This document shows, in pieces, positions 10,696 through 50,388 of a stretch of 64,000 nucleotides of DNA (positions are counted from its first letter, which is position 1; the number at the start of each line of letters is the position of its first letter). Both the position numbers and the translations under genes were made by a program. Origin of the DNA: Angustibacter sp. Root456. Lineage in GTDB: Bacteria; Actinomycetota; Actinomycetes; Actinomycetales; Angustibacteraceae. The notes under the pieces are model-generated. The model did not search any database. It was not told where the DNA came from and was given only the letters and a program-made list of their open reading frames with translations. The DNA is taken from positions 193,488 through 257,487 of the forward strand of contig NZ_LMER01000015.1 of NCBI RefSeq assembly GCF_001426435.1. The letters are read 5' to 3'.

Positions 10696-10704
10696 GTCGA
10701 GTCC

Positions 10705-11502: not shown

Positions 11503-11516
11503 GGCAGCTCTTCTCC

Positions 11517-16068: not shown

Positions 16069-17345
16069 GTCCGGGCTCCTCCAGGCTCCTCGAACCAGTC
16101 CGCGACGAACCGACCGAGCGTGCGGGCACCCGCTGCGATCGAGGCGATCTCCACCGACTCGTCGATCCCGTGGATGTTGGCCGCCGTGGGCCCGAAGCAG
16201 ATCGCCGGGGTGTCGAAGTACCGGATGTAGGTGCGGGCGTCGGTGGTGCTGCCGAGCGCGTAGGCCGCCGGCTCACGACCGTGGGCCGCCTGGTGGGCGC
16301 GGCGCAGCCGCACGGCCAGGTCGTGCTCGGCGTCGAGGTGGTACCCCGGGGCCCGGAACCCGCTGCTGCGCACCTGCGGCGGCTGCGGGAACCGGCCGCT
16401 GGCGGCGGCGCAGCGCGCGATGCGGGCGGCCACCTCGTGCTCGGCCTGCTCCGGCGTCCACGCGGTGGGGTAGGCCAGGCGAAGGCGAGCCGTGGCCTTG
16501 CCCGGCACGGACGACGGCCAGTCGCCGCCCGACACCACGCCGACGTTGAGGTTGTAGGGGCTCTCGACGTCGCGCAGCACCGGGTCGCGCTCGGCCGCTG
16601 ACAGCTCGGCGGTCCAGCGGCGCAGGTCGGCGACGAGCTCCCACAGGAGGTCGAACGGGTTCACCGCGAGGTGCGCGGCCTCGGCGTGCGCGGAGCGGCC
16701 CACGACGGTGACGTCGACCCAGACGATGCCGACCCCGCCGAGCAGCAGGTCGAGCCCGGTCGGCTCGACGGCCACCACGGCGTCGGCGAGCACGCCCTGC
16801 CGAGCCGCTGACAGCGTGCCGTTGCCCGTGCACTCCTCCTCGACGGCGGCCAGGAACCCCAGCGACCACGTGCCGAAGTCGGGGACGACGTCGCGCAGCG
16901 CCCGCAGCGCCAGCGTGGCCATGGCGAAGCCGCACTTCATGTCCCCCGCGCCGCGACCGTACAGGCGGCCCTCGTCGCGGCGCGGTTCGAACGGGTCGGA
17001 CGCCCACAGCTCGGGCGTGCTCGCCGGGACGACGTCGATGTGGCCGTGCAGCAGCAGGGACGACCGCAGCTCTCCGGTCAGCGAGGCGTAGGTGTTCTGG
17101 CGTGGGCCCGGCACGTCCTGCAGCACGCCAGCCCGCTCGTCGTCCGCGAGGCCGTCGTCGAAGGGCAGCACCGTCGTGGTGAAGCCGAGGTCAGCGAGCT
17201 CGGCCGCGAAGACCTCCTGGGCACCGACCTCGTGGCCGAGGTGGCTCGGCTGGCGCACCAGCGCCTCGAGGAAGTCGAGGGCGCGCGACTCGTGCCGCGT
17301 CACCGCGCGGTCGAACGCCTCGGAGTCCATCGTCGTCCCGTTCAT
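16065..17345 (-). CDS. M20-family metallohydrolase (ArgE/DapE-like)
   Basis: A 426-residue protein, first gene of the operon. Di-zinc ligands are visible in order: LLHGHIDVVP, RGAGDMKCG, EEECTGNG, with VEPTG and a late HGIDESVEI. The lid domain contains VVGRSAHAEAAH. Family members remove N-acyl groups or cleave short peptides (acetylornithine, succinyl-DAP, acyl-amino acids). Leading an Opp operon, it probably processes the imported substrate. The start is ATG 17345 or ATG 17330; neither has a clear ribosome-binding site, and the predicted leader is very short. Confidence 0.9.
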   Translation of the reverse strand: MNGTTMDSEAFDRAVTRHESRALDFLEALVRQPSHLGHEVGAQEVFAAELADLGFTTTVLPFDDGLADDERAGVLQDVPGPRQNTYASLTGELRSSLLLHGHIDVVPASTPELWASDPFEPRRDEGRLYGRGAGDMKCGFAMATLALRALRDVVPDFGTWSLGFLAAVEEECTGNGTLSAARQGVLADAVVAVEPTGLDLLLGGVGIVWVDVTVVGRSAHAEAAHLAVNPFDLLWELVADLRRWTAELSAAERDPVLRDVESPYNLNVGVVSGGDWPSSVPGKATARLRLAYPTAWTPEQAEHEVAARIARCAAASGRFPQPPQVRSSGFRAPGYHLDAEHDLAVRLRRAHQAAHGREPAAYALGSTTDARTYIRYFDTPAICFGPTAANIHGIDESVEIASIAAGARTLGRFVADWFEEPGGART

Positions 17346-17374: not shown

Positions 17375-17587
17375 AGAGCGCGCGAGGTGGTGGCACAAGA
17401 GGTGTCGCCGACCTGACCGAGCTCATCGGGTGGCGCGCACTGGGACGAACCGCTCACCGGGCACCAGATCGGCGCACCGCCCGCGCCGCCGAGGCGATAC
17501 GTGATCTGGGCCATGTTTCTTGACTGGCCCCGGGCGCTGCCGATGAGAAGGGCGAACGACTCGATTCCCCTGACCGGAGCACCCTCT

Positions 17588-19162
17588 ATGAAGCGCCTCA
17601 CCACGCTGTCCATCCACGCCCGCCTCGTCGCGATCGTCGCGCTCTTCGCCGTCGGCGTCGGTGTGCTCGCGCTCGTCGCCTCGTCGAAGATGACGTCGCG
17701 CATCATGACCGAGCGCAAGACCGCCACCCGGGGCGTCGTCGAGACGGCGCTCGGGGTCGTCACGTACTACGGCGACCGCGTGACGTCCGGTGAGCTGACG
17801 AAGGAGCAGGCGCAGCAGGCCGCTCTGGCCACCCTCAGCGGGCTGCGTTACTCGGGCAAGGAGTACTTCTGGGTCAACGACATGCACCCGACGATGCTCA
17901 TGCACCCCATGAAGCCAGAGCTGGTGGGCAAGGACCTCACCGACAACGTCGACCCCGACGGCAAGCACCTGTTCGTGGAGTTCACCAAGGTCGTGCAGGC
18001 CAAGGGCTCCGGCTTCGTCGACTACCAGTGGCCGAAGCCGGGCTTCAAGGACCCGCAGCCCAAGGTGTCGTACGTCGCGGGCTACGCCCCGTGGGGCTGG
18101 GTGGTCGGTTCGGGCATCTACGTCGACGACGTCCGGTCGGTCGCCTGGCACGAGACCCTCAAGCTCCTGCTGAGCGGGCTCGGTGTCCTGGTGCTCGTCG
18201 GCGGTGCCGCCCTGCTCATCGGTCGCACGATCGTGCGCCCGATCCGGTCGGCCACGCGCGTGCTCGCGAGCGGTGACCTCACCACGCGCCTGCACGAGGG
18301 ACGGGGCCGCACCGAGCTCGAGCAGCTCGCCGTCGCGCTCAACGCCACGCTCGACCGGTCGGCCGCCGTCGCCGCCGACGTCGGCGCCGCCGTCACCGAG
18401 CTGGACGACGCCGCGCACGCCCTCGTCAGCACCAGCGATGACATCTCCGCGGCCGCGGAGCGCTCGGCGCAGCAGACCGAGACGGCCGTGGCGTCGGCCC
18501 AGGCGGTGAGCACGGGCATCGACCAGGTGGCCTCCGGCACCCACCAGATGGGCGCGTCGATCACCGAGATCGCGCAGAACGCCCACGCCGTGGCCAAGAT
18601 CGCGAGCGAGGCGGTGCAGCTGGCCGAGGGCAGCAACCACACGGTGGCGGCGCTGGGCGAGTCGTCGGCCCAGATCAGCAGCGTCGTCAAGGTGATCACG
18701 ACGATCGCCGAGCAGACCAACCTGCTGGCCCTCAACGCCACCATCGAGGCAGCCCGCGCCGGCGAGGCCGGCAAGGGCTTCGCCGTCGTGGCCGGCGAGG
18801 TGAAGGAGCTCGCGCAGGAGACGGCGCGCGCCACCGGCGACATCTCGGCCCGCGTGGAGTCGATCCAGGGCGCGGTGTCGCAGGCCGCCGACCAGATCGC
18901 CCAGATCGGCGAGATCATCGGCCGGATCAACGACTTCCAGGCCACGATCGCCGGGGCCGTCGAGGAGCAGACGGCCACGACCTCGCTCATGGCGGCCAGC
19001 CTGACCCAGGCGGCCGACGGCGGCCGCGAGGTCACCGTGACGCTCGAGGGCGTCGACGCGGCGTCCCGGCACACGACGGCGGAGCTCGCCCGCATCCGCG
19101 AGGCCGCCCACGCGCTGGCCGAGACCTCGCAGCGGCTGCGCGACGCCGTGCGGGTGGGGTGA
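17588..19162 (+). CDS. Methyl-accepting chemotaxis protein with single Cache domain
   Basis: A 524-residue protein starting at ATG 17588 (GGAG eight bases upstream). TM1 is at about residues 13-33; an extracellular single Cache domain at about 35-185 includes [20 protein letters not shown] and [22 protein letters not shown]2 is near 190-212; HAMP follows from IVRPIRS; the signalling domain runs to the end. The tip [19 protein letters not shown] is the conserved CheA/CheW contact. Cache domains of this type often bind small organic acids. No CheR-tether pentapeptide is at the C-terminus. No che or flagellar genes are in the window, so it is a lone receptor. It is convergent with pxpC. Confidence 0.94.
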
Positions 19163-19230: not shown

Positions 19231-20193
19231 TCACTGCAGCGCCGATCGCAGCTGCTGCTGCACCTGCCGGGCGGCCTCCCGCGCCTCGACCGCGGCGTCC
19301 AGCGACACCGGGACGAAGCGCGTCTGGGTGCCGGGCGCGCACTGCGCGACGAGGTCGAGGTCGGCGCTGATCACCGTGGCGACCATGGCGTACCCGCCTC
19401 CTGACACCGCGTCGCGGTGCAGCACGATCGGCTCGACGCCGCCGGGCACCTGGATCGAGCCGATGGGGTAGCCGGCGTCGACGATGTTCGACGGGTCGGA
19501 GCCGGCGCCGAACGGCTGCTCGCGGTCGACCCACTCCAGCTCCGGTCCGGTGTAGCGCAGGCCCATGCGGTCGGCGACCGGGCTGACGGCCCAGGTCGAG
19601 TCGAGGAAGCGGTCGAGCCCGGCCGCCGTCAGCCGGTAGTCGTACAGCCCGAGCGCCACTCGCACGTCCACCTCGCGCGACAGGGCGGGGCGCAGGTGAT
19701 CGGGGACGACGCGGCCGGGCGTGCCCCCTGCACCGTGCGCCAGGACGTCCCCGGCCTGCAGCGCGCGGCCCTGGAAACCGCCGAAGCCTCCGACGGCGTA
19801 GGTCGACCGGCTGCCCAGCACGGCGGGGACGTCGATCCCGCCGCCGACCGCCAGGTAGATCCGCGCTCCCTGCTGCAGGTACCCGAACGTCAGCTCGTCC
19901 CCGGTCGCGACCGCCAGCGACTCCCACTGGGGCACGACGTCGCCGTTCAGCCGGGCCTCCATCGCCGCGCCCGTCACCGCGATGACGGCCGGCTCGGTGA
20001 ACCTCAGCTGCGGGCCGAGGTACGCGGCCTCGATCACCGGGGCGTCCGGGCCGTTGCCCACCAACAGGTTCGCCGCGAGCGCCGACTGCAGGTCGAGGGC
20101 ACCCGACGGCGGGATGCCCACGTCGTAGTAGCCGGGCCGCCCGCGGTCCTGCACGCTGCAGCCGAGTCCCGGCGAGATGACCTCAATGGACAT
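19231..20193 (-). CDS. pxpC: 5-oxoprolinase subunit PxpC (KipA/AHS2 family)
   Basis: A 320-residue protein. SPGLGCSVQDRGRPGYYDVGIPPSGALD is the canonical start of the KipA/AHS2 carboxyltransferase-like domain, with YLAVGGGIDVPAVLGSRSTYAVGGFGG and a late GGYAMVATVISADL. With PxpB it forms the transferase-like part of an ATP-dependent lactam hydrolase (5-oxoproline to glutamate in known cases). Its start overlaps pxpB by 11 bp. It is the last gene of the cluster, with a hairpin directly behind. Because biotin genes are interleaved upstream, the reaction may involve a carboxylated intermediate. Confidence 0.93.
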   Translation of the reverse strand: MSIEVISPGLGCSVQDRGRPGYYDVGIPPSGALDLQSALAANLLVGNGPDAPVIEAAYLGPQLRFTEPAVIAVTGAAMEARLNGDVVPQWESLAVATGDELTFGYLQQGARIYLAVGGGIDVPAVLGSRSTYAVGGFGGFQGRALQAGDVLAHGAGGTPGRVVPDHLRPALSREVDVRVALGLYDYRLTAAGLDRFLDSTWAVSPVADRMGLRYTGPELEWVDREQPFGAGSDPSNIVDAGYPIGSIQVPGGVEPIVLHRDAVSGGGYAMVATVISADLDLVAQCAPGTQTRFVPVSLDAAVEAREAARQVQQQLRSALQ

Positions 20194-21076
20194 TCAGTGC
20201 CTCCAGGAGACCTGCGTTGTAGCGGTCGGGGTCGGCGAGGAAGTCCTCCAGGGTGAACTTCACGGGCGCCGTCCGGAACCGGTAGGTGCCGGCCTCGACC
20301 TCCGCCTGGATGCCGCGGTACTCGGCCTCGTCGATGGGACGGAACTTCACGATGTCCCCAGGGCGGAAGAACACCATGAAGTCCGCGAAGTCGGGCAGCC
20401 GCTGCTCGGGGTCGAAGATCGGCGCCGGGGTGAGACCGAACATCTGGTAGCCGCCCGCCCCGCGCACCGAGTAGATGCACGAGAAGCAGCCGCCGTAGCC
20501 GACGGTCAGGGCCGGTGTGTCGGTGCGCGGCCGGATGTACTTCGGCACCTGGAGCTGCCGCTCCTGCTCGACCATCTGGAACATGAACGGCAGTCCGGCG
20601 ACGAACCCCACCATGGACGTGATCCACGGCAAGCCGGAGTGCGCCTCGATGAACGCCTCCACCGAGTCCAGCCCGTTGGCGATCGCCGCGAACTCCAGGT
20701 CGTTGCCCTCCGGCCGCTGGTGACGGTCGCGGAAGCGGGCTCCGGTCTCGTTCGTGTACGGGTCGTCGTACCAGACCGGCACCTCGATGATGCGCGTGTC
20801 GAGCCCCAGCCGTGGCGCCTCGGTGACGCCGACCTCGATGCGCCGGACGACGGCCTCGAGCTGACGGGGATGGATCACGTCGGGGTCGAAGCGGATCAGC
20901 AAGGACGCGTTGCCCGGACAGATGTCGACCACGCCGTCGAGGCCTTCGTCGGCGAGGGCCTTGCTCATCGCCATGGCGGTGAAGTTGGCCTCCAGGCTCA
21001 TCGCCTCGGCGATCTGCACCACGAGGTGCTCGTCGCCACCCCAGGAGTAGCGGGGGTTCGCCACGGCGGCGCTCAC
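20183..21076 (-). CDS. pxpB: 5-oxoprolinase subunit PxpB (KipI/AHS1 family)
   Basis: A 297-residue protein from GTG 21076, which follows GAGGAGG at eight bases and overlaps the accC stop (GTGA). The AHS1 features are clear: DICPGNASLLIRFDP, EVPVWYDD, GFVAGLPFMF, YGGCFSCIYSVRGAGGYQMFGLTPAPI and FFRPGDIVKF. About 60 residues longer than the usual KipI, with extra sequence at the N-terminus and around PYTNETGARFRDRHQRPEGND. It works as a complex with PxpC. Confidence 0.92.
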   Translation of the reverse strand: MSAAVANPRYSWGGDEHLVVQIAEAMSLEANFTAMAMSKALADEGLDGVVDICPGNASLLIRFDPDVIHPRQLEAVVRRIEVGVTEAPRLGLDTRIIEVPVWYDDPYTNETGARFRDRHQRPEGNDLEFAAIANGLDSVEAFIEAHSGLPWITSMVGFVAGLPFMFQMVEQERQLQVPKYIRPRTDTPALTVGYGGCFSCIYSVRGAGGYQMFGLTPAPIFDPEQRLPDFADFMVFFRPGDIVKFRPIDEAEYRGIQAEVEAGTYRFRTAPVKFTLEDFLADPDRYNAGLLEALNVH

Positions 21077-22428
21077 ACCGCCACCTCCTCTCGCGCCATC
21101 CACTCCTCCAGGAACCGGGTGTGGTGGTCGCTGCTGCGGAACTCGGGCAGGTCGACGACGTCGCGCAGGAAGCCGACGGTGGTGGCCACGCCCTCCACCT
21201 CCACCTCGGCGAGCGCGCGGCGCAGCCGGGAGATCGCTTCGTCGCGCGTCGCCCCCCACACGATCACCTTGGCGAGCAGCGAGTCGTAGAACGGCGGCAC
21301 CTGACCGCCCTCCTCGTACCCCGAGTCGACGCGGACGAAGGGGCCGCCGGGGAGGCGAAAGCGCGTGAGCGGTCCCGGGCTGGGCATGAACCCCGTCGCG
21401 GGGTCCTCGGCGTTCAGCCGCACCTCGATGGCGTGCCCGCGCGGTGGGTGCTGGTCCTGGAACCGTGACAGCGCCTGCCCACGAGCGACCAGCAGCTGCT
21501 CCTGCACGAGGTCGAAACCCCACACCATCTCGGTGACGGGGTGCTCCACCTGGATGCGGGTGTTCATCTCGATGAACGCGAAGTCCTTCCGCTCGGCGTC
21601 GTAGAGGAACTCCACCGTGCCCGCGCCGCGGTACGACACCGCGCTCGCCAGCCGCACCGCGGCATCCGTCATGGCGCGTTCGACGTCGGCGGGCAGGCCG
21701 AGGTCGCCGGCTTCCTCGACGACCTTCTGCCGGCGGCGCTGCATCGAGCAGTCGCGTGTGCCCATGTGGATCACGTCGGTGCCGTCGCCGAACACCTGCA
21801 CCTCGATGTGCCGGGCCCGGGGGACGAAGCGCTCGAGGTACACCTCGGCGCTGCCGAACGCCGCCCGCGCCTCGGCCTGCGCCACGGGCAGCTGGGAGCG
21901 CAGCTCGTCGTCGGAGCCCACGACGCGGATGCCTCGGCCACCGCCGCCCGCCGCGGCCTTGATGGCCACCGGGTAACCGACGTCGGCCGCCACGCGCTGG
22001 GCGGCCGCGAGGTCCACCACCGCACCGTCCGACCCGGCGATCGTCGGGACGCCGGCCTGCTGGGCGCTGGCCCGAGCACGTGCCTTGTCGCCCATGAGCC
22101 GGATCGCCTCGGGCGAGGGACCGACCCAGGTCATCCCCGCACCGATGACGCGCTCGGCGAAGTCGGCGTTCTCCGACAGGAAGCCGTACCCGGGGTGCAC
22201 GGCGTCGGCACCGCACCCCTTCGCCGCCGCGACGACGGCGTCGACGTCGAGGTAGCTCTGGCCGGCGGGTGCGGGGCCGACCACCACGTGCTCGTCGGCG
22301 TAGCGCACGTGCACCGCGTCGACGTCCGCCTCGCTGCACACCGCGACCGTGGAGATACCGAGCTCGCGCGCCGCCCTGGCGACGCGCACGGCGATCTCAC
22401 CGCGGTTGGCGATGAAGAGCTTTCGCAT
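21073..22428 (-). CDS. Biotin carboxylase (AccC-type)
   Basis: A 451-residue protein. KLFIANRGEIAVRVARAARELGI, DAVHPGYGFLSENADFAE, the glycine loop KAAAGGGGRGI, FIEMNTRIQVEHPVTEMV and RLNAEDP are the full set of ATP-grasp biotin carboxylase motifs. It carboxylates the biotin on the neighbouring 81-residue carrier. No acyl-CoA carboxyltransferase (AccA/D or AccD5-like) gene is nearby; its partners are the Pxp genes on both sides. The housekeeping acyl-CoA carboxylase is expected elsewhere, so this is probably a dedicated pathway enzyme. Confidence 0.93.
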   Translation of the reverse strand: MRKLFIANRGEIAVRVARAARELGISTVAVCSEADVDAVHVRYADEHVVVGPAPAGQSYLDVDAVVAAAKGCGADAVHPGYGFLSENADFAERVIGAGMTWVGPSPEAIRLMGDKARARASAQQAGVPTIAGSDGAVVDLAAAQRVAADVGYPVAIKAAAGGGGRGIRVVGSDDELRSQLPVAQAEARAAFGSAEVYLERFVPRARHIEVQVFGDGTDVIHMGTRDCSMQRRRQKVVEEAGDLGLPADVERAMTDAAVRLASAVSYRGAGTVEFLYDAERKDFAFIEMNTRIQVEHPVTEMVWGFDLVQEQLLVARGQALSRFQDQHPPRGHAIEVRLNAEDPATGFMPSPGPLTRFRLPGGPFVRVDSGYEEGGQVPPFYDSLLAKVIVWGATRDEAISRLRRALAEVEVEGVATTVGFLRDVVDLPEFRSSDHHTRFLEEWMAREEVAV

Positions 22429-22673
22429 CAGGCGACCTCGATGGTGGCGACCGGCTCGCCCGGCGACAGCACCTGCTCGGCCTCGACCACGAACGACACG
22501 AGTGTTCCGTCGGCCCCGGCCTTCACCTCGGCGAACTGCTTCATCACCTCGACCAGGCCGATCGTCTGGTCCGCCGTCACCTGCTCACCCGGCTCGACGT
22601 ACGGGTCGGCGTCGGGTGAGGGCCTGCGGTAGAAGACCCCGGGGAGCGGAGAGTGGACGACGTGCTCAGCCAT
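22428..22673 (-). CDS. Short biotin carboxyl carrier protein
   Basis: An 81-residue protein that is only the biotinyl domain. VHSPLPGVFYRRPSPDADPYVEPGEQV leads to the biotinylation loop VEVMKQF, where the Lys of EVMK accepts biotin. It lacks the Pro/Ala-rich N-terminal extension of typical AccB. The start overlaps pxpA by 8 bp, and the stop shares one base with the biotin carboxylase start (TGATG). It shuttles carboxyl groups for that enzyme. Confidence 0.93.
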   Translation of the reverse strand: MAEHVVHSPLPGVFYRRPSPDADPYVEPGEQVTADQTIGLVEVMKQFAEVKAGADGTLVSFVVEAEQVLSPGEPVATIEVA

Positions 22674-23427
22674 GCTGACTTCCCTTCTCGGTGACGTCCG
22701 TGTCGGCGGACTCGATGACGTCGCGCACCGCCGCCGCCACCGCGACGGCGGTGGCGGTGTCGGAGTGGACGCAGATGCTCGTGAAGCTCACCGGGATGCG
22801 TTCGCCGGTGTCGGCCTCGGCGACGCCCTCCCGCAGCGCCCGCACGGCCCGCTGGGCCGCGAGCTCCGGCGCCGTCGCGTGCGGTCGGCGAGCGATGATG
22901 AGGCTGCCGTCGGCGCGGTAGCCCAGGTCGACGTAGAACTCGGCGACGAACGGCACGTCGCGCCGCTGCGCGACCCGCTCGTGCGCCGTCCCCGTCATGC
23001 CGTACACCGGGACGCCGTAGTGGACGGCGACGTCGCACAGCGCGTCCATCAGCTCTTCGTCGCGAGCGACCATGCCGTAGAGCGAGCCGTGCGGCTTGAT
23101 GTGGTCGAGCGGCACTCCCTCGATGTCGCAGAACGCCTTCAGTGCACCGACCTGGTAGAGCACGAGGTCGCGCACCTCCTCGGGGAACAGCTTCATCTCG
23201 CGCCGCCCGAAGCCCACGGCGTCCGGCAGGCCGGGGTGCGCCCCCACCGTCACACCTGCGGCCGCAGCCTTGGCGACGGTCTCGTGGATACCCACCGGAT
23301 CGCCGGCGTGGAATCCGCACGCGATGTTCGCGGTGTCGATGTGGGGCAGCAGGGCGTCGTCGTTGCCGAACGAGTGGATCCCGAAGGACTCCCCCATGTC
23401 GGAGTTGATCGTGACCTTCACCGTCAT
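22666..23427 (-). CDS. pxpA: 5-oxoprolinase subunit PxpA (LamB/YcsF family)
   Basis: A 253-residue protein from ATG 23427 (GAGGGTGAG upstream). VTINSDMGESFG, NIACGFHAGDPVGI, GVTVGAHPGLPDAVGFGRREM, IKPHGSLYGM and FVAEFYVDLGYRADGSLI are diagnostic of the YcsF/PxpA barrel. It forms with PxpB and PxpC an ATP-dependent amide-ring-opening enzyme, known for 5-oxoproline. The end overlaps the biotin carrier gene by 8 bp. Confidence 0.94.
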   Translation of the reverse strand: MTVKVTINSDMGESFGIHSFGNDDALLPHIDTANIACGFHAGDPVGIHETVAKAAAAGVTVGAHPGLPDAVGFGRREMKLFPEEVRDLVLYQVGALKAFCDIEGVPLDHIKPHGSLYGMVARDEELMDALCDVAVHYGVPVYGMTGTAHERVAQRRDVPFVAEFYVDLGYRADGSLIIARRPHATAPELAAQRAVRALREGVAEADTGERIPVSFTSICVHSDTATAVAVAAAVRDVIESADTDVTEKGSQHG

Positions 23428-23456
23428 GCACTCACCCTCTTCGTCATGTCGCCGTC

Positions 23457-23810
23457 TCACTCGGTTCGTTGTGTCGCAACGCCTCTCGCGCTGACGTGCC
23501 GGGCGGCGTCCAACACCGCGAGCACCACCGGGGAGCGGCTCGCGTCACCCGGGTCGGCCAGGTGGGCCTCGTCGATCGGCCGGACGGCCACGAGCCGGCG
23601 CCACACGTCGGTCACCGTGTCGGCGAGCGCGGCGGCTCCGGTGCCCGAGCGCACCACCCACGGGCCGCTGCCGACGTCGACGCGAGCCGGGTGGCCGGCG
23701 CGCCGCAGCACGTCGTTGACCGTGCGCGTCGCCTCCCACCGGGCCCGGCGCGTGGCCAGCACACCGGACCACGGGTCGGTCGCCACCTTCCTGCTGCAGG
23801 CCCCGCACAT
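23457..23810 (-). CDS. Small conserved-looking protein, unknown function
   Basis: A 117-residue protein starting at ATG 23810, with AAGGGGGAT upstream and 12 bp after the SDR stop. It begins MCGACSRKVATDPW, a single CxxC, then reads as alpha-helical with VNDVLRRAGHPARVDVG and a Trp-rich middle. No membrane segment or recognised domain is seen. Third-position G+C and its fit between two operon genes argue that it is real. Function is unknown; a role in the lactam/imide cluster is possible only by position. Confidence 0.65.
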   Translation of the reverse strand: MCGACSRKVATDPWSGVLATRRARWEATRTVNDVLRRAGHPARVDVGSGPWVVRSGTGAAALADTVTDVWRRLVAVRPIDEAHLADPGDASRSPVVLAVLDAARHVSARGVATQRTE

Positions 23811-23822
23811 GGTGGATCCCCC

Positions 23823-24563
23823 TTACGGCATCACGTCGCCGGAGTTCGGGCCGAGCGTCTGCCCGACGTACAGGTCGCCGCCCGGTGAGCTGGCCAGCAG
23901 CACCGCCGTGGGTGCCACCTCGGCCGGCGTGCCGAACCGCCCGAGCGGCAGCTCGGCCCGCTTGGCCTGCTTCCAGTCCTCGGAGATGCCGTCGACGAGT
24001 GGCGTCTCGATGGGTCCGGGGGCGATCGCGTTGACCAGGACGCCGTCGCGCGCCACCTCCAGCGCCAGGGACTTGGTGAGGCCGATGACGCCGGCCTTGG
24101 CGGCGCTGTAGTGCGTCAGCGACGTGCCACCCTTGAGCGCGAGCTGCGAGGCGATGTTGATGACCCGCCCGAACCCGCGGGCCACCATGCCGGGCACGAC
24201 GTGGCGGCACAGGAGGAACACGCCGGTGAGGTCGACGTCGATCGTCTGCTGCCACTGGGCCAGCGACATCTCGACCAGCGGCGACTGCGTGAGGATGCCC
24301 GCGGAGTTCACGAGGACGTCGATGCGGCCCAGCTGCTCTTCCGCCTCGGCCACCGCGCGCACCACCGCCTGCTCGTCGGTGACGTCGGCCGCGACCGCTC
24401 CGCGCGCGCCCAGGGCCTCGGCTGCCTCCTGGCTCACCGCTGGATCGCGGTCGAGCACCACGACCTGCGCGCCGCTGTCGACGAACGCCGCCGCGATCGC
24501 CCGCCCGATACCGCTGGCCCCTCCGGTGACCAGTGCGGTCTGCCCGCTCAGGACGCCGCTCAT
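23823..24563 (-). CDS. SDR-family NAD(P)-dependent oxidoreductase
   Basis: A 246-residue classical SDR. The nucleotide motif is TGGASGIG, with Asp in VVVLDRD after strand 2 (favours NAD). NSAGI and catalytic Ser/Tyr/Lys in INIASQLALKGGTSLTHYSAAKAG follow. ATG 24563 overlaps the stop of the upstream SDR (ATGA). It probably oxidises or reduces a hydroxyl/keto group of a pathway intermediate; the substrate is unknown. Confidence 0.92.
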   Translation of the reverse strand: MSGVLSGQTALVTGGASGIGRAIAAAFVDSGAQVVVLDRDPAVSQEAAEALGARGAVAADVTDEQAVVRAVAEAEEQLGRIDVLVNSAGILTQSPLVEMSLAQWQQTIDVDLTGVFLLCRHVVPGMVARGFGRVINIASQLALKGGTSLTHYSAAKAGVIGLTKSLALEVARDGVLVNAIAPGPIETPLVDGISEDWKQAKRAELPLGRFGTPAEVAPTAVLLASSPGGDLYVGQTLGPNSGDVMP

Positions 24564-25336
24564 GCGCGCATCTTCACGATGAGGCCGCCGTCGACGACGA
24601 GCTCCTGGCCCGTGACGTACCGCGAGTCGTTCGAGGTGAGGAACCAGATGACGTCGGCGACCTCCTCGGGGCGTCCCACGCGACCCCACGGGATGTCGTC
24701 GCCGGCCCGCTCGAGACCCTCGGGCCCCAAGGAGTTGACCGGGTCGGACGACTGCGGCGTCTCGATGAGGCCCGGGATCACGGCGTTGACGCGGATGCCG
24801 CGCGGAGCCAGCTCGACGGCCAGGCTGCGGCAGATGCCGAGCACACCGGCCTTGGCGGCCGCGTAGTGCGCGTGGTCCTCCCAGCCGTACACGCCACCGG
24901 CGATCGACGACACAGCGACCATCGCACCGCCCTCCCCGAGGTACGGCGAGCACGACCGGAAGGTACGCAGCACGCCGGTGAGGTCGACCGAGAGCATGTC
25001 GTCCCAAGCGTCGTCCGTGAGCTCGGCGAGGGGGGCCCGGCGCAGGATGCCGGCGTTGGCGACGACCTTGTCGATGCGTCCGAACGTCTCGTGGGCCCGG
25101 CGGGCGAGCTCGTCGACCTGCCCGGCGTCGCGGACGTCGACGTCGACCACCAGGCCGGTACCGCCCTCGGCCTCGACCTGGCGCAGCGTCTCGTGCGGGT
25201 CGTGCGGGTCGCCGGGGTAGCTGCCGATGACGACGTTGACGCGCTCGCGCGCGTACCGCACGGCGAGCGCCCGACCGATGCCGCTCGCGGCGCCCGTGAT
25301 GACGGCGACCTGCTGGCCGCTGGTGCTGCCTGGCAT
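24560..25336 (-). CDS. SDR-family NAD(P)-dependent oxidoreductase
   Basis: A 258-residue classical SDR from ATG 25336 (AAGGG eight bases upstream; GTG 25345 would add three residues). TGAASGIG, NAGI and VSSIAGGVYGWEDHAHYAAAKAG hold the cofactor and catalytic residues. After strand 2 it reads VVIGSYPGDPHDPHE, with no Asp at the NAD-selecting site, so it may prefer NADP. It is paired with the following SDR gene; the two share the fold but differ in the cofactor loop. Confidence 0.9.
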   Translation of the reverse strand: MPGSTSGQQVAVITGAASGIGRALAVRYARERVNVVIGSYPGDPHDPHETLRQVEAEGGTGLVVDVDVRDAGQVDELARRAHETFGRIDKVVANAGILRRAPLAELTDDAWDDMLSVDLTGVLRTFRSCSPYLGEGGAMVAVSSIAGGVYGWEDHAHYAAAKAGVLGICRSLAVELAPRGIRVNAVIPGLIETPQSSDPVNSLGPEGLERAGDDIPWGRVGRPEEVADVIWFLTSNDSRYVTGQELVVDGGLIVKMRA

Positions 25337-25362
25337 GTGATGCACCCTTCGTGGGGGTCGTG

Positions 25363-25395
25363 GCGGAGGGGGCGCGGCAGGCGCGCCCCCTCCGC
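25363..25395 (-). terminator. 14-bp hairpin between MFS carrier and SDR genes
   Basis: GCGGAGGGGGCGCG (25363-25376) and its exact complement (25382-25395) enclose a 5-base loop. It lies 23 bp past the MFS stop on the minus strand. It may terminate the asparaginase-hydrolase-MFS transcript or reduce read-through into the SDR-pxp part of the cluster. Confidence 0.7.
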
Positions 25396-25418
25396 TCGAC
25401 GGCGGTGAGCGACCGGAC

Positions 25419-26783
25419 TCAGTGCTCGAGCTGCGGCACCGACTTGGCGAACAGCATCAGGACGCCGGACAGGAAGGTGCCGAGCGCCCCGACCCAGAGC
25501 GCGGCCGGGCCCGTGCCCCACGCCGCCGCAACGGCCGTGAAGAGAAAACCACCCAGGATCGTGCCGGGCTGGCTCATGGCGCCGATGATCACGGTGCCGG
25601 TACCGCGGCAGTCGGTCGGGTAGCACTCACCCATGTAGAACATGATCGCGGCGTACGGGCCGACCAGGAAGAACAGCCCGATGGCGTAGGTGGCGACGAT
25701 GAGCGCCGCGGTGTCGACGACCGGCGAGAGCATGGCCGCGAAGGCCACTCCCGAGATCATCCAGCCGATGACGATGGTCTTCTTGCGGCCGATGCGGTCG
25801 CCGAGCCAGCCGTGGAAGACGTAGCCGAAGTACGCGCCCAGGTTGATGACGATCAGCATCCAGAACGCCGTGCTGAGCTCGACGCCCTTGGCGTTGGCCA
25901 GCACCGAGCTGCCCAGGACGCTGAAGATGTTGATACCGAAGAAGTTGATGATCCACGCCAGCGACAGCACGATCGTGTTGCGGCGCAGCTCGGGCTGCAT
26001 GATGCGCGCGATCGGCGCGCTCTCGGTGTGCTCGACACCGTACTCCGCGGCCAGGCGCTCGGCCTCGGCGGACTTGCCCTCCTTCTTCAGCCGCGTCAGG
26101 CGCTGGTGCAGCTCGAACTGCGGCGTCTCACGCAGCTTCTTGCTGATCACGATGATGAGCACCACCGCTGGCAGCGTCGCGACGAGGTACATCGCGCGCC
26201 AGCCCAGGCGGTCGAGCAGCACGAGTGCGAGGGCGCTCGACAGCAGGAAGCCCAGCGGCCAGCCGCCCTGCACGATGCCGTACCAGAAGCCGCGACGCTC
26301 GCGCTTCTTCTCGTCCTCGGTGATCGCGAAGACCTCGTTGAGGTAGGTCGCGTTCACCGACTGCTCGGAGAACCCGAGGCCGCCGAGCGAGCGGACGGCG
26401 ACGATCGCGGTGTTGCTGACGGCACCGAGCCGCGCGGGGATGATCGCGGTCAGCACCGACGCGACCGCAGTGCCGCCGATCGTCAGCATCATGCCGCGGC
26501 GGCGGCCGAGCCGGTCGATCACCGGGCCGACGCCGAACGCGACGATCGCCGTGCCGACGGCGATGAGGGTGTTGACCAGGTAGGCGGTCGACTCCGACCA
26601 GCCGAAGTCGTCCTGCATCGCCGGCAGCAGTGTGCCGAACAGGCCGTAGTCGAAGACGGCCACGGTCCAGGCGAGCAGCGCCAGCACCATGGCGGTGTTG
26701 GTCTGCTTGCGCGTGAAGTGGGGGAAGCGCGCCCGCTGGCGGGCGGACTCCTCCCCCTCGAGAGGCGTGGCGAGGTCACTCAT
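25419..26783 (-). CDS. MFS transporter (12 TM, carboxylate/sugar-type)
   Basis: A 454-residue protein. ATG 26783 overlaps the stop of the CE4 gene (ATGA). About 12 helices; loop 2-3 has [15 protein letters not shown], loop 8-9 [13 protein letters not shown], and the middle loop carries a charged stretch near [22 protein letters not shown]. The layout resembles the metabolite:H+ symporters that import organic acids rather than drug exporters. It is the likely entry route for the substrate of this cluster. Confidence 0.88.
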
Positions 26784-27670
26784 GCGCTGTCTCCGTTGCG
26801 GGGGTGGCGGGCGGCGAAGTCGTCCGCGATCTGGTCGAAGGTGGCCCACCGGACACCCTCGTGCTGGTTGATGTGCTCGATCAGGCGCTCGAGCATCAGG
26901 AGAACCTGCGGACGCCCCGAGACGTCCGGGTGGATCGTGAAGGTGACGACGCCGTAGTCCATCTCGCGGTAGACCCAGTCGAACTGGTCGCGCCACATCT
27001 CCTCGAGCTGGCGAGGGTTGACGAAGCCGTGGCTGTTGGGACTGGACTTGATGAACATCATCGGCGGCAGGTCGTCGAGGTACCAGTTCGCCGGGATCTC
27101 GATGAGGTCGGTCTCCTCACCACGCACCAGCGGCTTCATCCAGTCGTCGGCCGAGGCGGAGTAGTCGATCTTCGTCCAGCTGTCTCCGACCCGGACGCGG
27201 TACGGCGTGAAGTCCCTGTGCATCAACGAGTGGTCGTACTTGATGCCACGCTCGAGCAGCAGCTCGTTCGTGACGTTGGAGAACTCCCACCAGGGCGCCA
27301 CGTAGCCGGTCGGGCGGCGTCCGGTGACGTTCTGGATGAGGTCGATGCAGCGGTCGAGCACCGCCGTCTCCTGCTCACGGCTCATCGCGATGGGGTTCTC
27401 GTGGCTGTAGCCGTGCACCCCGATCTCGTGCCCGGCGTCGACGATCTGCTGGAACTGCTGGGGGAACGTCTCGATGGAGTGCCCCGGCACGAACCACGTG
27501 CTCGGCAGGTCGTACTTCTTGAACAGGTTCAGCAGACGGGGGGTCCCCACCTCACCGGCGAACATCCCTCGCGAGATGTCGTCGGGTGAGTCCTCACCGC
27601 CGTAGGAACCCAACCATCCGGCGACCGCGTCAACGTCGACGCCGAACGCACAGAGAATTTCCTTCGGCAA
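26780..27670 (-). CDS. CE4 polysaccharide-deacetylase-family hydrolase, cyclic-imidase-like
   Basis: A 296-residue cytoplasmic protein with no signal peptide. The start is TTG 27670 with GAGGAG about seven bases upstream. Metal-binding motifs are [10 protein letters not shown] (Asp) and [14 protein letters not shown] (His-x3-His); [24 protein letters not shown] and [12 protein letters not shown] follow. The lack of secretion and the [18 protein letters not shown] block resemble the HpPgdA-like subgroup, which from memory includes bacterial cyclic imide hydrolases of about 293 residues. A ring-opening amidohydrolase fits the amidase and Pxp neighbours better than cell-wall deacetylation. The substrate is inferred. 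Confidence 0.85.
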
Positions 27671-27728
27671 GGCAATCTCCTCTTCTTCTGGCTCAGCTGC
27701 GGCAGCCGAGGCGGTGTGACACGGGGAG

Positions 27729-28712
27729 TCAGCTGGACAGGTGGTCGTGCAGGGCGACGCGCGCCTTGTCGGGGTCGGCGTGCACCCCCAGCAGTGCGGC
27801 GAGCAGGACGCGCGCCTGGCCCGGACGCAGCAGCCCCATGGGCACCGCGCCGGCGCCGAGCAGGTCGGCGCCCCCGCCGTCGCCGTAGATCGAGGCGACG
27901 GGGCCGCAGGCGACGCGGGTCGACGTCGCGACGACCACGCCCTGCGCCGTCAGCTCCTCGACCGTGGCGCAGATGTCGGGGTTCGCGTTGCCGGCGCCGG
28001 TGGCCTCGAGCACGATGCCGCGGGCTCCGGCCGCCGCCAGGGCGCGCAGCGCCGTCGCGTCCGCTCCGGGGTAGCACGCCGCGATGTCGACGCGGGCCCG
28101 CGCGGCGTCGAAGTCCGCCACCGGCAGCACGCGCCGGGGCCCACGGCGCCGCGACAGGCTCACCGAGTCGCCGTACACCCAGCCGAGCGGGCCGTGGTCG
28201 GGCGCACCGAACGCGTGCGAGGCGAGCGTCTGGACCTTGCGGACGCCAGCGGCGGCGAAGACGGCGCCGTCGAAGACCACGACCGTCCCGAGCCCTTGTG
28301 CCGCAGGCTCTGCAGCGACCCTGATGGCGTCGGCGAGGTTGCGCGGGCCGTCGGTGTCGGGCGCGTCGGCGGGCCGCTGCGCGCCCGTGACGACGACCGG
28401 CCGGTCGGAGCCGACGAACAGGTCGAGGAAGAACGCCGTCTCCTCGATCGTGTCGGTGCCGTGGGTGACGACCAGGCCCGTGACCGCCGGGTCGGTGAGC
28501 ACGCGCTGGGCCTGCCCGGCCAGCTCGTGCATGCGCTCGAGCGTCATGAGGTAGCTGCCGACGCGGAAGACGTCGCGCACGGTGACGTCGACGTCGAGCC
28601 GGCCCAGCCGCTCGAGCAGCTCGGCGCCCGACGCGCTCGCCACCGTGCTGCCCTGAGCGTTGGTGCGGCTCGCGATCGTCCCGCCCGTGGCGAGCACCGT
28701 CACTGCGCGCAC
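27729..28712 (-). CDS. Asparaginase-family amidohydrolase
   Basis: A 327-residue protein from GTG 28712, which has GGGAGG seven bases upstream. The first catalytic Thr is in [10 protein letters not shown], the second in [15 protein letters not shown], and the [23 protein letters not shown] block carries the Lys. It has no signal peptide, so it is the cytoplasmic type. It leads the cluster beside a CE4 ring-opening hydrolase, so it may hydrolyse a half-amide product instead of, or as well as, L-asparagine. It is divergent from the LacI gene over a palindrome. Confidence 0.9.
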
Positions 28713-28745
28713 TGACCGACCTCCCGGTACTGGGGTTCGCCCTAC

Positions 28746-28759
28746 CGTTAGCGCTAACG
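28746..28759. promoter_or_regulatory. LacI-type operator
   Basis: CGTTAGCGCTAACG is a perfect 14-bp palindrome with the central CG step typical of LacI/GalR operators. It lies 34 bp upstream of the asparaginase start and about 95 bp upstream of the regulator start, well placed to control both directions. Confidence 0.8.
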
Positions 28760-28854: not shown

Positions 28855-29910
28855 ATGACCATTCGGGGCGAAGAGGGCCGGCTGCCCTACGTCGACGCGT
28901 CGGGGCGGGCGACGCTGCGCACCGTCGCCGAGCTCGCCGGCGTCCACGTCTCGACCGTCTCGCGCGTGCTCAACGGCAGCACCGGCACGGGCGTACGCAC
29001 CGCCGGCGCGTCCACCACCGAGCGGATCCGGCGCATCGCCCTCGAGGTCGGCTACCAGCCCAACCCCCACGCGACGGGGCTGCGGACCCGCCGCAGCCAG
29101 CTCATCGGCGTCCTGGTGCCCCGCCTCGTCGACATCGTGCTCGCCACGATCTACGAGGGGGTCGAGGAGGCCGCGGCGTCGTTCGGGTTCTCCGCCTTCG
29201 TCGCCAACACCGGTGACGACCCCGTGGCCCAGCGGCTGCGCACGCAGATGGTGCTCGCCCGTCGCGTCGACGCGATGATCTTCGGTGACGCCTACATCGA
29301 CGGCACCTTCCTCGACGACGTCGCGCACCAGGGCGTGCCGTTCGTGCTCGTCTCGCGCCGCGCGTCGCACCACCCGTCGGTGACGTGCGACGACTACGAG
29401 GGCGGCCGGCTCGCGGCCCAGCACCTGCTCGAGCTGGGCCACCGCAACGTCGCGGTGATCGCCGGCGAGCCCTACGCCAGCACCGGAATCGACCGCACCG
29501 CAGGCTTCGTCGACACCTTCGCCGAGGCCGGCATCACCATCGCGCGCTCGAAGGTCGTGCACTCGCACTTCGACACGCCCGGTGGCCGGGACGCCATGCA
29601 GCAGATCCTGGCCTCACGTCGGCGGCCCACAGCGGTGTTCGCCACCAACGACTTCGCGGCGATCGGCGCCATGGGCGCCCTGCGCGAGGCCGGCCTGCAG
29701 GTGGGCACCGACGTCGCGGTCGTGGGCTACAACGACGTCCCGCTCGCCGGGTCGCTGCCGGTGCCACTCACCACCGTGCGATCGCCGATGCACGACATGG
29801 GCGTCAAGGCGGTGCACCTGCTCATGAAGCGACTGGGCGGCGAGGAGGTCGAGTCCGAACGGCTGACGCCGCTGCTCGTCGTGCGCGAATCCTCGCAGCC
29901 GAACCCGTAG
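28855..29910 (+). CDS. LacI-family transcription regulator
   Basis: A 351-residue protein from ATG 28855 (GAGGGCGGG upstream); ATG 28828 is in frame but less well placed. The DNA-binding part is ATLRTVAELAGVHVSTVSRVLNGS with hinge helix VGYQPNPHATGLRTRRS. The effector domain is periplasmic-binding-protein-like: LIGVLVPRLVDIV, GIDRTAGF, AVFATNDFAAIGAMGALREAG and VVGYNDVPLAGSLPVPLTTV. An insert GTGVRTAGASTT lengthens the HTH-hinge link. It probably represses the divergent amidohydrolase-pxp cluster until an inducer binds. Confidence 0.93.
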   Translation: MTIRGEEGRLPYVDASGRATLRTVAELAGVHVSTVSRVLNGSTGTGVRTAGASTTERIRRIALEVGYQPNPHATGLRTRRSQLIGVLVPRLVDIVLATIYEGVEEAAASFGFSAFVANTGDDPVAQRLRTQMVLARRVDAMIFGDAYIDGTFLDDVAHQGVPFVLVSRRASHHPSVTCDDYEGGRLAAQHLLELGHRNVAVIAGEPYASTGIDRTAGFVDTFAEAGITIARSKVVHSHFDTPGGRDAMQQILASRRRPTAVFATNDFAAIGAMGALREAGLQVGTDVAVVGYNDVPLAGSLPVPLTTVRSPMHDMGVKAVHLLMKRLGGEEVESERLTPLLVVRESSQPNP

Positions 29911-30771: not shown

Positions 30772-32046
30772 GTGGCCAGCGTCGGCCGGGCCGTGCAGGC
30801 GGCCATCTACCGCGCCGGGGTGTACGGGCGGCGCCCGGTGGCGCCGACGTCCGGGGCTGCGCTCGAGGCGGCGGCCGAGCAGCGGATGTCGCGGCGGGCC
30901 TTCGCCTACGTCGCCGGCTCGGCCGGCCAGGAGCGGACGGCGCGGGCCAACCTCGCGGCCTTCGACCACTGGGCGATCGTGCCGCGCATGCTGCGGGACG
31001 TCTCAGCGCCCGACACCTCGACCGACCTGTTCGGTCGCCGGCTCCCGGCGCCGCTGCTGCTCTGCCCCATCGGCGTGCTGGAGCTCGCGCACCGTGGCGC
31101 CGACTTCGCGGTGGCCCGCGCGGCCGCCCGGCTCGGGCTGGCGATGGTGCAGTCGAGCCAAGCGTCGCACTCGATGGAGGACGTCGCCGCCGCGGCGAGC
31201 GGGCCGCGCTGGTTCCAGCTCTACTGGAGCAACCGCGACGAGCTGGCCGACAGCTTCGTCCGGCGCGCGGAGGCGTCCGGGTGCGAGGCGCTCGTCGTCA
31301 CGCTCGACACCCACACGCTCGGGTGGCGTCCGCGTGACCTCGACCTGGGGTACCTGCCGTTCGCGCACGGCCTCGGCATCGCGCAGTACACCGCCGACCC
31401 GGTGTTCGCCGAGCTGGTGCGCGAGCGGGTGAGGGCGGGGTCGGCGTCCGGGGGGAAGCGCGAGCGGCCCACCCCCGCGGCCGTCGCGGCGCTGCTGTCG
31501 ATGGCGCGCCACCACCCCGGCAGCACGCGGGCGAACCTGCGCTCGCCGCTGCCGCGGGCGGCGGTCGAGACCTTCCTCGAGGTGTTCTCGCGGCCGAGCC
31601 TCACGTGGGACGAGCTGGCCTGGCTGCGCGAGCGCACGCGGCTGCCCATCGTGCTCAAGGGCATCCAGCACGCCGACGACGCCTCGCGAGCGCTGGACGC
31701 CGGCGTCGACGGCGTGTGGGTGTCGAACCACGGCGGACGCCAGGTCGACGGCGCGCTCGCGTCCCTCGCCGCGCTGCCCGGCGTCGTCGAGCGGGTGGCC
31801 GGGCGGGTGCCGGTGATCTTCGACAGCGGCGTGCGCTCGGGAGCCGACGCCCTTGTCGCCCTCGCGCTGGGCGCCGACGCCGTCGGGATCGGGCGACCGT
31901 GGGCCTACGGCCTGGCACTGGCGGGTGAGGCCGGCGTCACCGCCGTCCTCGAGCACGTCGTGGCCGAGCTGGAGCTCACGATGGGGTTGGCCGGGTGCGC
32001 GTCCCTCGCCGAGCTCGACCGTGGCGTGCTGGTGCCACGCGCCTGA
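30772..32046 (+). CDS. FMN-dependent alpha-hydroxy-acid oxidising enzyme (lactate 2-monooxygenase/LldD-like)
   Basis: A 424-residue TIM-barrel flavoprotein, GTG start 30772, five bases after yajQ. RRAFAYVAGSAGQERTARANLAAFDHW, PLLLCPIGVLELAHRGAD, PRWFQLYWS, LPIVLKGIQHADDA and VSNHGGRQVDG (catalytic His and substrate Arg), then FDSGVRSGADALVALALGADAVGIGRPW give the FMN and substrate sites. The length and the insert after LGYLPFAHGLG match the actinobacterial lactate monooxygenase-like group. The likely substrate is L-lactate or another 2-hydroxy acid. Element A1 follows. Confidence 0.9.
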   Translation: MASVGRAVQAAIYRAGVYGRRPVAPTSGAALEAAAEQRMSRRAFAYVAGSAGQERTARANLAAFDHWAIVPRMLRDVSAPDTSTDLFGRRLPAPLLLCPIGVLELAHRGADFAVARAAARLGLAMVQSSQASHSMEDVAAAASGPRWFQLYWSNRDELADSFVRRAEASGCEALVVTLDTHTLGWRPRDLDLGYLPFAHGLGIAQYTADPVFAELVRERVRAGSASGGKRERPTPAAVAALLSMARHHPGSTRANLRSPLPRAAVETFLEVFSRPSLTWDELAWLRERTRLPIVLKGIQHADDASRALDAGVDGVWVSNHGGRQVDGALASLAALPGVVERVAGRVPVIFDSGVRSGADALVALALGADAVGIGRPWAYGLALAGEAGVTAVLEHVVAELELTMGLAGCASLAELDRGVLVPRA

Positions 32047-38159: not shown

Positions 38160-38479
38160 GGGACGTCCACGCGCTCGGCGAGGTCGCGGGCGCGCTGCAG
38201 GTCGACGTCGCCGCGGCGGCGGAACAGCAGCAGCACCGCCGCGAGCGCCACGCCCACCTCGGCCGCCGCCACCGTGATGACGAACAGGGTGAGCACCTGC
38301 CCGCCGTGCAGCCGGTCGGCGTACGCCACGTCGAAGGTCACGAGCAGCAGGTTGGCGGCGTTGAGGATCAGCTCGATGCCGATCAGCACCAGCACCGCGT
38401 TGCGTCGGGCCAGCACGCCGTAGACGCCACAGCCCGCGAGCACCGCCGCCAGGAGCAGCGGGGAGGCGAGGTGGATCAC
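38156..38479 (-). CDS. nuoK: Complex I-like subunit NuoK (second cluster)
   Basis: A 107-residue protein with three helices. RRNAVLVLIGIELILNAANLLLVTF contains the conserved Glu of the antiporter-like channel and VITVAAAEVGVALAAVLLLFRRRG the second Glu. Overlaps nuoJ and nuoL by four bases each. Confidence 0.94.
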   Translation of the reverse strand: MIHLASPLLLAAVLAGCGVYGVLARRNAVLVLIGIELILNAANLLLVTFDVAYADRLHGGQVLTLFVITVAAAEVGVALAAVLLLFRRRGDVDLQRARDLAERVDVP

Positions 38480-44736: not shown

Positions 44737-44855
44737 CCCTTGGTCAAACTCGCCTAGAGGGTACTCGGTGTGCCGCCGCAGACCAGCGCCGCGCCCCGGG
44801 TGGCGTGAGCGCCTGCGTCCAGATGGCGGCCGGCGGGTCATGCGCCCAGCACACG

Positions 44856-44873
44856 ACCTACGATGGCGTAGGT
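44856..44873 (+). promoter_or_regulatory. korA promoter region with inverted repeat
   Basis: ACCTACG (44856-44862) and CGTAGGT (44867-44873) form a 7-bp inverted repeat with a 4-base spacer. Within it TACGAT (44859-44864) is a good TANNNT -10 box. It lies 25 bp upstream of the korA start, so a regulator may bind over the -10 element. Confidence 0.5.
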
Positions 44874-44897
44874 AGCGAAGACCTCGACAACAGGGCG

Positions 44898-47895
<2,998 letters not shown>

Positions 47896-47899
<4 letters not shown>

Positions 47900-49333: not shown

Positions 49334-49355
49334 AAGGGCCGCGCAGGGGGGTGGG

Positions 49356-50381: not shown

Positions 50382-50388
50382 GGCGTCG

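Follow-up and report, generated by a model that had tools for sequence, protein, structure and literature searches.

Known routes for cyclic imides and lactams

The nicotinate pathway of Aspergillus nidulans uses a dehydrogenase, a CE4 cyclic imidase and an amide hydrolase in sequence. These enzymes, HxnW, HxnM and HxnN, act one after another, and HxnM, which opens 3-hydroxypiperidine-2,6-dione, is 64.2% identical to the Pseudomonas putida imidase and closest in structure to HpPgdA (HP0310) of Helicobacter pylori, according to the accessible portion of PMC9304392. ATP-dependent lactam opening is represented by the caprolactamase CapAB, of the hydantoinase/oxoprolinase family; the available part of the CapAB paper discusses a bicarbonate requirement and a carboxylated-lactam mechanism in which biotin is not involved, and describes CapAB as not similar to the prokaryotic 5-oxoprolinase PxpABC (PMC8453981). 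Elsewhere ycsF has been related to lamB, and kipA to urea amidolyase (PMC3412718, accessible text). Here we analyze a 64,000-nucleotide stretch of the Angustibacter sp. Root456 genome (contig NZ_LMER01000015.1, positions 193,488 to 257,487; hereafter the window), in which an operon joins a CE4 gene of the imidase branch to a Pxp module with biotin-enzyme genes.

An operon with a probable imide half and a probable lactam half

Eleven genes on the minus strand run from 28703 down to 19231, opposite a divergent LacI-family gene, in the order AsnA, CE4, major facilitator superfamily (MFS) carrier, two short-chain dehydrogenases (SDR1 and SDR2), small CxxC protein, PxpA, biotin carboxyl carrier protein (BCCP), biotin carboxylase (BC), PxpB and PxpC. 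An open reading frame (ORF) check and Pfam and NCBIfam searches confirmed the cluster, and every gene that the initial annotation had named on this strand is present where it was placed. The domains fit the gene names: asparaginase N- and C-terminal domains, Polysacc_deac_1, MFS_1/Sugar_tr and two SDR domains in the upper part, and LamB_YcsF, Biotin_lipoyl, biotin carboxylase domains, CT_C_D (PxpB) and CT_A_B (PxpC) at the Pxp end. The AsnA-CE4 gap is 58 bp, CE4 and MFS overlap by 4 bp, and the MFS-SDR1 gap is 73-82 bp depending on the start chosen; SDR1 and SDR2 overlap by 4 bp, the small gene lies 12 bp from SDR2 and 29 bp from PxpA, and the remaining overlaps are 8 (PxpA/BCCP), 1 (BCCP/BC), 4 (BC/PxpB) and 11 bp (PxpB/PxpC). 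With a widest gap of about 82 bp and six overlapping junctions, the earlier description of gaps under 85 bp and frequent overlaps holds.

What is such an operon for? We think it rather probable that it serves the intracellular catabolism of a small cyclic imide or lactam, in which biotin-dependent N-carboxylation of the lactam and its hydrolysis by LamB would be coupled to imide breakdown. A broader proposal is that LamB plus a split urea-carboxylase-like enzyme forms a distinct and widespread class of biotin-dependent lactam-opening systems, joined repeatedly to a CE4-imidase/SDR/amidase pathway and concealed by 5-oxoprolinase labels in actinobacteria, proteobacteria and haloarchaea; on this proposal we are evenly divided.

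The biotin-type Pxp module

The genes of the lactam half encode PxpA/LamB (22666-23427; PF03746), BCCP with the motif EVMKQF (22428-22673; PF00364, and over the cut-off of NF005457), BC (21073-22428; PF00289, PF02786 and PF02785), the carboxyltransferase (CT) C/D subunit "PxpB" (20183-21076; PF02682), whose start we place at the GTG at 21076, correcting the earlier call, and the CT A/B subunit "PxpC" (19231-20193; PF02626). Prokaryotic PxpABC likewise has LamB/PxpA, CT_C_D and CT_A_B subunits; the window differs in adding BC and BCCP, in having Lys instead of Arg at the CT base, and in a PxpB only 25-33% identical to the canonical protein. Similarly, the urea carboxylase/urea amidolyase KlUA shares BC, BCCP and a two-part CT with a conserved lysine, so that all the parts of a urea-carboxylase-like N-carboxylase are present, but the window form is split into four genes, its PxpB is 27-31% identical to the counterparts in single-chain urea carboxylases, and LamB stands in for allophanate hydrolase. 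PxpB scores 102 bits to urea carboxylase against 84.1 bits to TIGR00370 (cut-off 145.55), below both cut-offs, and with the urea carboxylase model TIGR02712, whose cut-off is 1303.85, BC and PxpB give 527 and 102 bits as separate proteins. A profile built from nine window-type PxpB sequences has urea carboxylase and urea amidolyase (3va7, 5i8i) as its top PDB matches.

A single residue is central to the comparison. The window motif VPKY-RPRT, which contains Lys179 of PxpB, aligns with tKYnpsRT of the yeast enzyme, where the lysine is chain residue 1604 by count. For yeast urea amidolyase, Lys1605 is described as most likely the general base on which the CT reaction depends (PMC5770610, in the part available), and we take residue 1604 and Lys1605 to be the same lysine, with a one-residue offset in numbering. 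Lys occupies this position in 55/55 readings of window-type modules and single-chain urea carboxylases (54 distinct loci, seven of them urea carboxylases, since L203 and L209 are one locus twice; the short loci L117-L146 and L167-L181 were omitted), and Arg occupies it in 32/32 distinct canonical PxpB loci, E. coli PxpB included, the Lys and Arg sets having been gathered by overall similarity and thus being two sequence groups rather than independent draws. BC is nearby in 50 of the 55 Lys-type readings, and PxpA/LamB in 45 of the 48 that are split. The window's own genome has no second CT_C_D protein. Taken together, BCCP, BC, "PxpB" and "PxpC" look like the parts of a urea-carboxylase-like biotin enzyme, for which biotinylation and carboxyl transfer are predicted. 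The ATP-dependent lactam opening by Pxp in the initial annotation must therefore be reread: the lysine and the model scores speak against canonical PxpABC, and biotin-dependent lactam opening is proposed in its place.

Could the module nonetheless be canonical 5-oxoprolinase PxpABC lying beside an unrelated BC and BCCP of the acyl-CoA-carboxylase type? We judge this unlikely, though PxpA does exceed the cut-offs of the NCBIfam PxpA subfamilies NF003814 and NF003816, BC occurs near 3 of 14 long canonical loci, and pxpTABC of Corynebacterium glutamicum supports growth on 5-oxoproline (PMC13274462, accessible text). Besides the replacement of Arg by Lys, the order pxpA-accB-accC-pxpB-pxpC is maintained in stand-alone loci, and no acyl-CoA beta subunit was found among the operon genes with Pfam and NCBIfam. 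A second alternative, a split urea or guanidine carboxylase with its allophanate hydrolase elsewhere, would account for CT subunits, BC and BCCP arranged as urea carboxylase parts. It seems quite improbable, given the frequency of LamB/PxpA beside split Lys-type genes and the low identity (27-31%) of window PxpB to its counterpart in the seven single-chain enzymes.

Adjacency of BC was considered as a mark unique to the Lys type and rejected, since BC accompanies no fewer than 5 of the 32 distinct Arg loci, of which 18 were viewed with 1.5-kb flanks only. In L155, L158, L161 and the short L134 and L142, all from related genomes, Arg-type pxpABC has BC adjoining pxpC, and in L158 and L161 BC is fused to BCCP in a protein of about 580 residues. 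Biotin may serve some canonical modules too.

Neighbors of stand-alone modules

In alpha- and betaproteobacteria the module is found with no CE4 gene in view, as LysR, pxpA, accB, accC, pxpB, pxpC, often continuing with a TorT-like binding protein and an ABC carrier. Within the window's phylum a close PxpB occurs in 15 of 296 sampled genomes, namely the window's own and 14 of a family from another class (f34), in which the order is pxpB-pxpC-pxpA-accB with BC divergent. A Haladaptatus module adjoins amidohydrolase, Zn-hydrolase and cytosine-permease genes.

What do these neighbors say about the substrate? The gamma-aminobutyrate (GABA) genes gabT and succinate semialdehyde dehydrogenase (SSADH) lie near the module in Ruegeria, Aestuarium and Agrobacterium T29, and f34 loci have a molybdenum (Mo) hydroxylase homologue (27-32% identity to the query) in 9/12, gabT in 5/12 and SSADH in 3/12; presence thresholds here and in the locus counts below were chosen by us. 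The same searches found gabT, SSADH or Mo-hydroxylase in none of 14 canonical pxp loci and none of seven urea carboxylase loci, the latter a further point against a urea or guanidine carboxylase. The GABA genes favor 2-pyrrolidinone as the substrate of the stand-alone module. In Rhizobium CIAT894 a CE4 cluster, the module, SSADH, carbonic anhydrase and bioB-bioF-bioD-bioA all lie inside about 26 kb, and in Acidiphilium bioB adjoins the module. These bio and carbonic anhydrase neighbors, in two records, are the strongest linkage evidence for a dependence on biotin and bicarbonate, and the CIAT894 locus also argues against a 5-oxoprolinase with an unrelated BC and BCCP.

The CE4 protein

The CE4 gene (26780-27670, TTG start) encodes a protein identical to HpPgdA at 225 of 292 positions (77%), a full-length match in the PDB (3qbu, 4ly4), and HpPgdA residues D12, D14, H86, H90 and H247 are all retained. 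In a tree of 26 rows the two proteins fall in one 23-row clade with support of 100/100, a clade that also includes L008, whose branch is extremely long and whose placement is not trusted; L102 was left out because of a stop codon inside the matched stretch. Related genomes supplied four CE4 proteins of 36-39% identity; three fall outside the HpPgdA clade and the fourth is L008. On the grounds of identity, retained metal and catalytic residues and shared clade, the window CE4 belongs to the cyclic imidase/HpPgdA branch, as had been proposed from the letters alone; imide hydrolysis itself is predicted. The imidase of P. putida YZ-26 is placed in the same branch by description.

The initial annotation had named grouping with peptidoglycan deacetylases as an outcome that would speak against its proposal. 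Such a grouping exists in name only: HpPgdA was first called a deacetylase from tests on crude peptidoglycan and mutant data, but it has a buried active site and neither a signal peptide nor an accessible polysaccharide groove, and it was inactive on the typical substrates that were tried (all from the available part of PMC3084791). No PgdA or PdaA family model reaches its cut-off with the window CE4 (PgdA 41 bits against 400); PuuE, the best-scoring model, also falls short of its own (86 against 424.6), and the neighbors of the window CE4 are catabolic. That the protein is a peptidoglycan deacetylase in an operon for cell-wall recycling, as the name of its 77% identical relative might suggest, strikes us as very improbable.

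Linkage of the two halves

Relatives of the CE4 gene from a collection of species genomes were compared in the best 80 of at least 587 loci, near relatives comprising 43 actinobacterial and 37 proteobacterial loci with up to 10 kb on each side; clusters of antisense ORFs were disregarded. In 17 of the 80, from 10 genera, pxp genes of the window type are found no more than 10 kb from CE4. The plasmid lists cover 60 of 92 and 60 of 89 records, mostly from Rhizobium and its kin. Among the 60 best PxpB plasmid records, mostly Rhizobium and close relatives, 42 have CE4 no more than 13.3 kb away; one has it at a distance, and the rest are off the CE4 list, itself of 60 records. The position of pxp relative to CE4 varies among at least four arrangements, rhizobial forms included. 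In the window, Streptomyces F63 and Frigoribacterium pxp is downstream of CE4 and shares its strand; Arthrobacter has it on the side and strand of LacI, and Sinomonas beyond LacI in the CE4 orientation.

Several plasmids carry related clusters. Klebsiella plasmids have amidase-CE4-MFS-SDR-SDR-small protein-CobW, near insertion sequences in L200 (NZ_CP099405.1, Klebsiella pneumoniae). A Leisingera plasmid (L198, 10001-20879) has two CE4-amidase sets within about 10 kb, the second with a CE4 28% identical and a "urea carboxylase-associated" family gene.

A proposed partner for the half-amide

The asparaginase-family amidase AsnA (27729-28703; PF00710 and PF17763) is favored as the hydrolase of the half-amide that CE4 would release. 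A half-amidase candidate shares the locus with CE4 in 71 of the 80 loci, spanning 35 genus-level groups (the other 9 lack both families), which we read as more than a chance association, and its family changes with phylum: an AsnA homologue is present in 40/43 actinobacterial and 2/37 proteobacterial loci, and an amidase-signature enzyme in 29/37 proteobacterial and 0/43 actinobacterial loci. As two unrelated amidase families fill one slot beside CE4, the half-amide step of the initial annotation is favored.

The AsnA sequence is in keeping with an amide hydrolase, falling short of the type II L-asparaginase model TIGR00520 (190 bits, cut-off 314). With residue roles that we take to be those of E. 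coli asparaginase II, the equivalents of T12, T89, D90 and K162 are kept and those of Q59 and E283 are changed. The E283 equivalent is lost in 41/41 readable CE4-linked AsnA sequences, and an aromatic residue holds the Q59 position in 42/42, as it does in L221. Does the loss of E283 prove a substrate with no amino group? The argument is weakened, as L221, L222, L224 and L225, relatives in which no link to this CE4 type was seen and whose distant alignments are rough, lose the glutamate too. L228 and L230 keep it, L226 is CE4-linked, and L227 reads a gap.

A proposed route, and what weighs against it

How might the gene products act together? The MFS protein would import the ring compound, and the SDRs could bring a hydroxy-lactam or another hydroxylated ring up to the oxidation state of the imide, by analogy with HxnW. 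CE4 would open the imide to a half-amide, which the asparaginase-like protein would convert to ammonia and a diacid. On the lactam side, BC would charge biotin on BCCP with bicarbonate, using ATP; the split CT, PxpB plus PxpC, would transfer the carboxyl group onto the lactam, Lys179 being the proposed base; and LamB would hydrolyze the activated ring, with loss of CO2, to an amino acid. The scheme resembles the way in which urea carboxylase readies urea for its hydrolase. The parts of the lactam module, its lysine and its linkage are observed, and the carboxylation and hydrolysis are inferred. The likeliest substrates are small lactams such as 2-pyrrolidinone or a hydroxy form of it, and imides such as succinimide or hydroxyglutarimide. 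The operon may encode a single linear route, or a pair of routes served by a common importer.

Several observations weigh against this picture. A PDB search with the single window PxpB sequence ranks the canonical-type PH0987 above urea carboxylase, and only the nine-sequence profile reverses the order. The BC gene adjacent to at least 5 of 32 canonical Arg loci, fused to BCCP in the two resolved, means that linkage to BC is not peculiar to the Lys type. Canonical PxpBC hydrolyzes ATP, and PxpABC is described as not similar to ATP-dependent carboxylases (PMC8453981, accessible part). SSADH is rare near CE4-linked modules (1/18 and 1/6), and Pfam checks of genes surrounding the window operon showed no GABA gene, which would fit a GABA route confined to the stand-alone module. 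The compared loci are not phylogenetically independent. In 59 related genomes a CE4 of at least 61% occurs six times, the window's own not counted, and only one of the six (G041) has the whole set with pxp, the others having AsnA or little more; the one genome of the same genus has no CE4 match. The conserved linkage anticipated in the initial annotation is thus borne out in many relatives, with pxp in 17 of 80 loci, and is patchy among near kin.

In Shinella sp. WSC3-e (L216/L219) an L-2-hydroxyglutarate oxidase gene (lhgO) comes immediately after the CE4-amidase cluster, in the opposite orientation, which favors hydroxyglutarimide for the CE4 half. This bears on another explanation, possible though clearly less probable than the preferred one: a lower nicotinate- or hydroxypyridine-like route, in which the SDRs would yield 3-hydroxyglutarimide, CE4 and AsnA would take it to 2-hydroxyglutarate, and Pxp would deal with a side lactam. 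The enzyme types and their order of action match HxnW-HxnM-HxnN, and an OYE-family gene, comparable to HxnT, is present in 9 of the 43 actinobacterial CE4 loci and in a separate record, Rhodococcus erythropolis R138. The Hxn system differs in being fungal, and the likeness to HxnN and HxnW is drawn from their described functions. A pyridine hydroxylase or monooxygenase was not found among the operon genes with Pfam and NCBIfam, and lhgO was seen in just one scanned record. We know of no biotin/LamB module in the Hxn pathway.

Novelty and meaning

The cluster's parts are of known kinds. In a literature search to which most subscription papers were out of reach, we found no account of a split, LamB-coupled biotin form or of a biotin module joined to a CE4 imidase pathway, and nothing on a biotin lactam enzyme by name or on the locus tags of Rhizobium johnstonii pRL12; the earlier remark that this combination is not known as a described pathway agrees with that search. 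In A. nidulans, lamA and lamB serve the use of 2-pyrrolidinone. If lamA is urea-amidolyase-like, as it perhaps is, the novelty of the biotin-type module is lower.

Why does it matter? Annotated records call these genes 5-oxoprolinase, acetyl-CoA carboxylase, allophanate hydrolase and polysaccharide deacetylase, labels that conceal what is probably a pathway for degrading cyclic imides and lactams, rings that occur in solvents, drugs and natural products. Annotators could tell biotin-type from canonical Pxp modules by one residue, Lys or Arg. If the preferred reading is true, biotin has a new job, the activation of cyclic amides before their hydrolysis; HpPgdA may act on small rings as a hydrolase; and a function is at hand for some of the carboxyltransferase-domain proteins left open by Lombard and Moreira 2011 (PMC3199775, in the part available).

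Dehydrogenases, importer and small protein

SDR1 (24560-25345, alternative ATG at 25336) and SDR2 (23823-24563), both PF13561, occur together with CE4 in two phyla, in 26/43 actinobacterial and 30/37 proteobacterial loci. Both are present in 12/12 actinobacterial CE4 loci with pxp versus 14/31 without pxp. In L193 (3955-12188), MFS-SDR2-SDR1 homologues adjoin a biotin Pxp module and there is no CE4 match, an arrangement that connects the SDRs with the lactam half as well. The BC, PxpB and PxpC matches of L193 are fragmented as if by frame shifts. The importer varies: MFS (25419-26783 in the window; PF07690), a Pot-like ABC system in rhizobia, and an NCS1 carrier in some CE4 loci.

The small protein (23457-23810), which begins MCGAC, matched no Pfam or NCBIfam family. 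It is homologous (hhalign probability 96.8, E 2.4e-10) to an MCxxCG protein of about 100 residues that proteobacterial clusters encode together with a GTPase of the CobW family. CobW is present in 35/37 proteobacterial and 3/43 actinobacterial CE4 loci, and in L042, L050 and L078 it still lies beside CE4 though the SDRs are absent. An accessory role for CE4, perhaps in metal supply, is proposed. The AlphaFold model of the small protein is confident (pLDDT 86.5), and searches with it gave no recognizable fold relative in the PDB (Foldseek best E 0.23; VIA best Z 4.8).

The LacI regulator and a candidate operator

The divergent LacI-family gene (28855-29910, plus strand, ATG at 28855) is separated from AsnA by a gap with a 14-bp perfect palindrome, CGTTAGCGCTAACG, at 28746-28759, whose last base is the end coordinate of the cluster in the initial annotation. 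Perfect palindromes of at least 12 bp occur in 17 of 29 other LacI-AsnA gaps from relatives, many centered on AATCGATT or AAACGTTT; the two closest relatives, L037 and L038, have none of that length in the gap, and the background across the window is 67 such palindrome centers per 64 kb. A LacI homologue (at least 50%) is present in 28/43 actinobacterial CE4 loci, and its place is taken by GntR in 34/37 proteobacterial loci. The divergent gene and the palindrome, a candidate LacI operator, make the LacI control proposed earlier plausible; LacI would repress the operon until the ring compound is present.

Surroundings in the window

A chemoreceptor-like gene, recognized by eye (17501-19162, plus strand), abuts the Pxp end of the cluster. 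Nearby, minus-strand genes at 9094-17345 encode a peptide-type ABC importer, an alpha/beta hydrolase and an M20 peptidase, and among them is a GntR/FCD regulator look-alike, also by eye (15289-16068). On the other side, a gene of the FMN-dependent 2-hydroxyacid dehydrogenase family (30772-32046) lies past a tRNA-Tyr gene downstream of LacI, and a 2-oxoacid:ferredoxin oxidoreductase pair followed by complex I genes lies within 44697-62494. Between 36264 and 40536 no ORF passed a codon-position GC filter, and positions 34001-40000 have a strong AT skew of 0.27-0.36.

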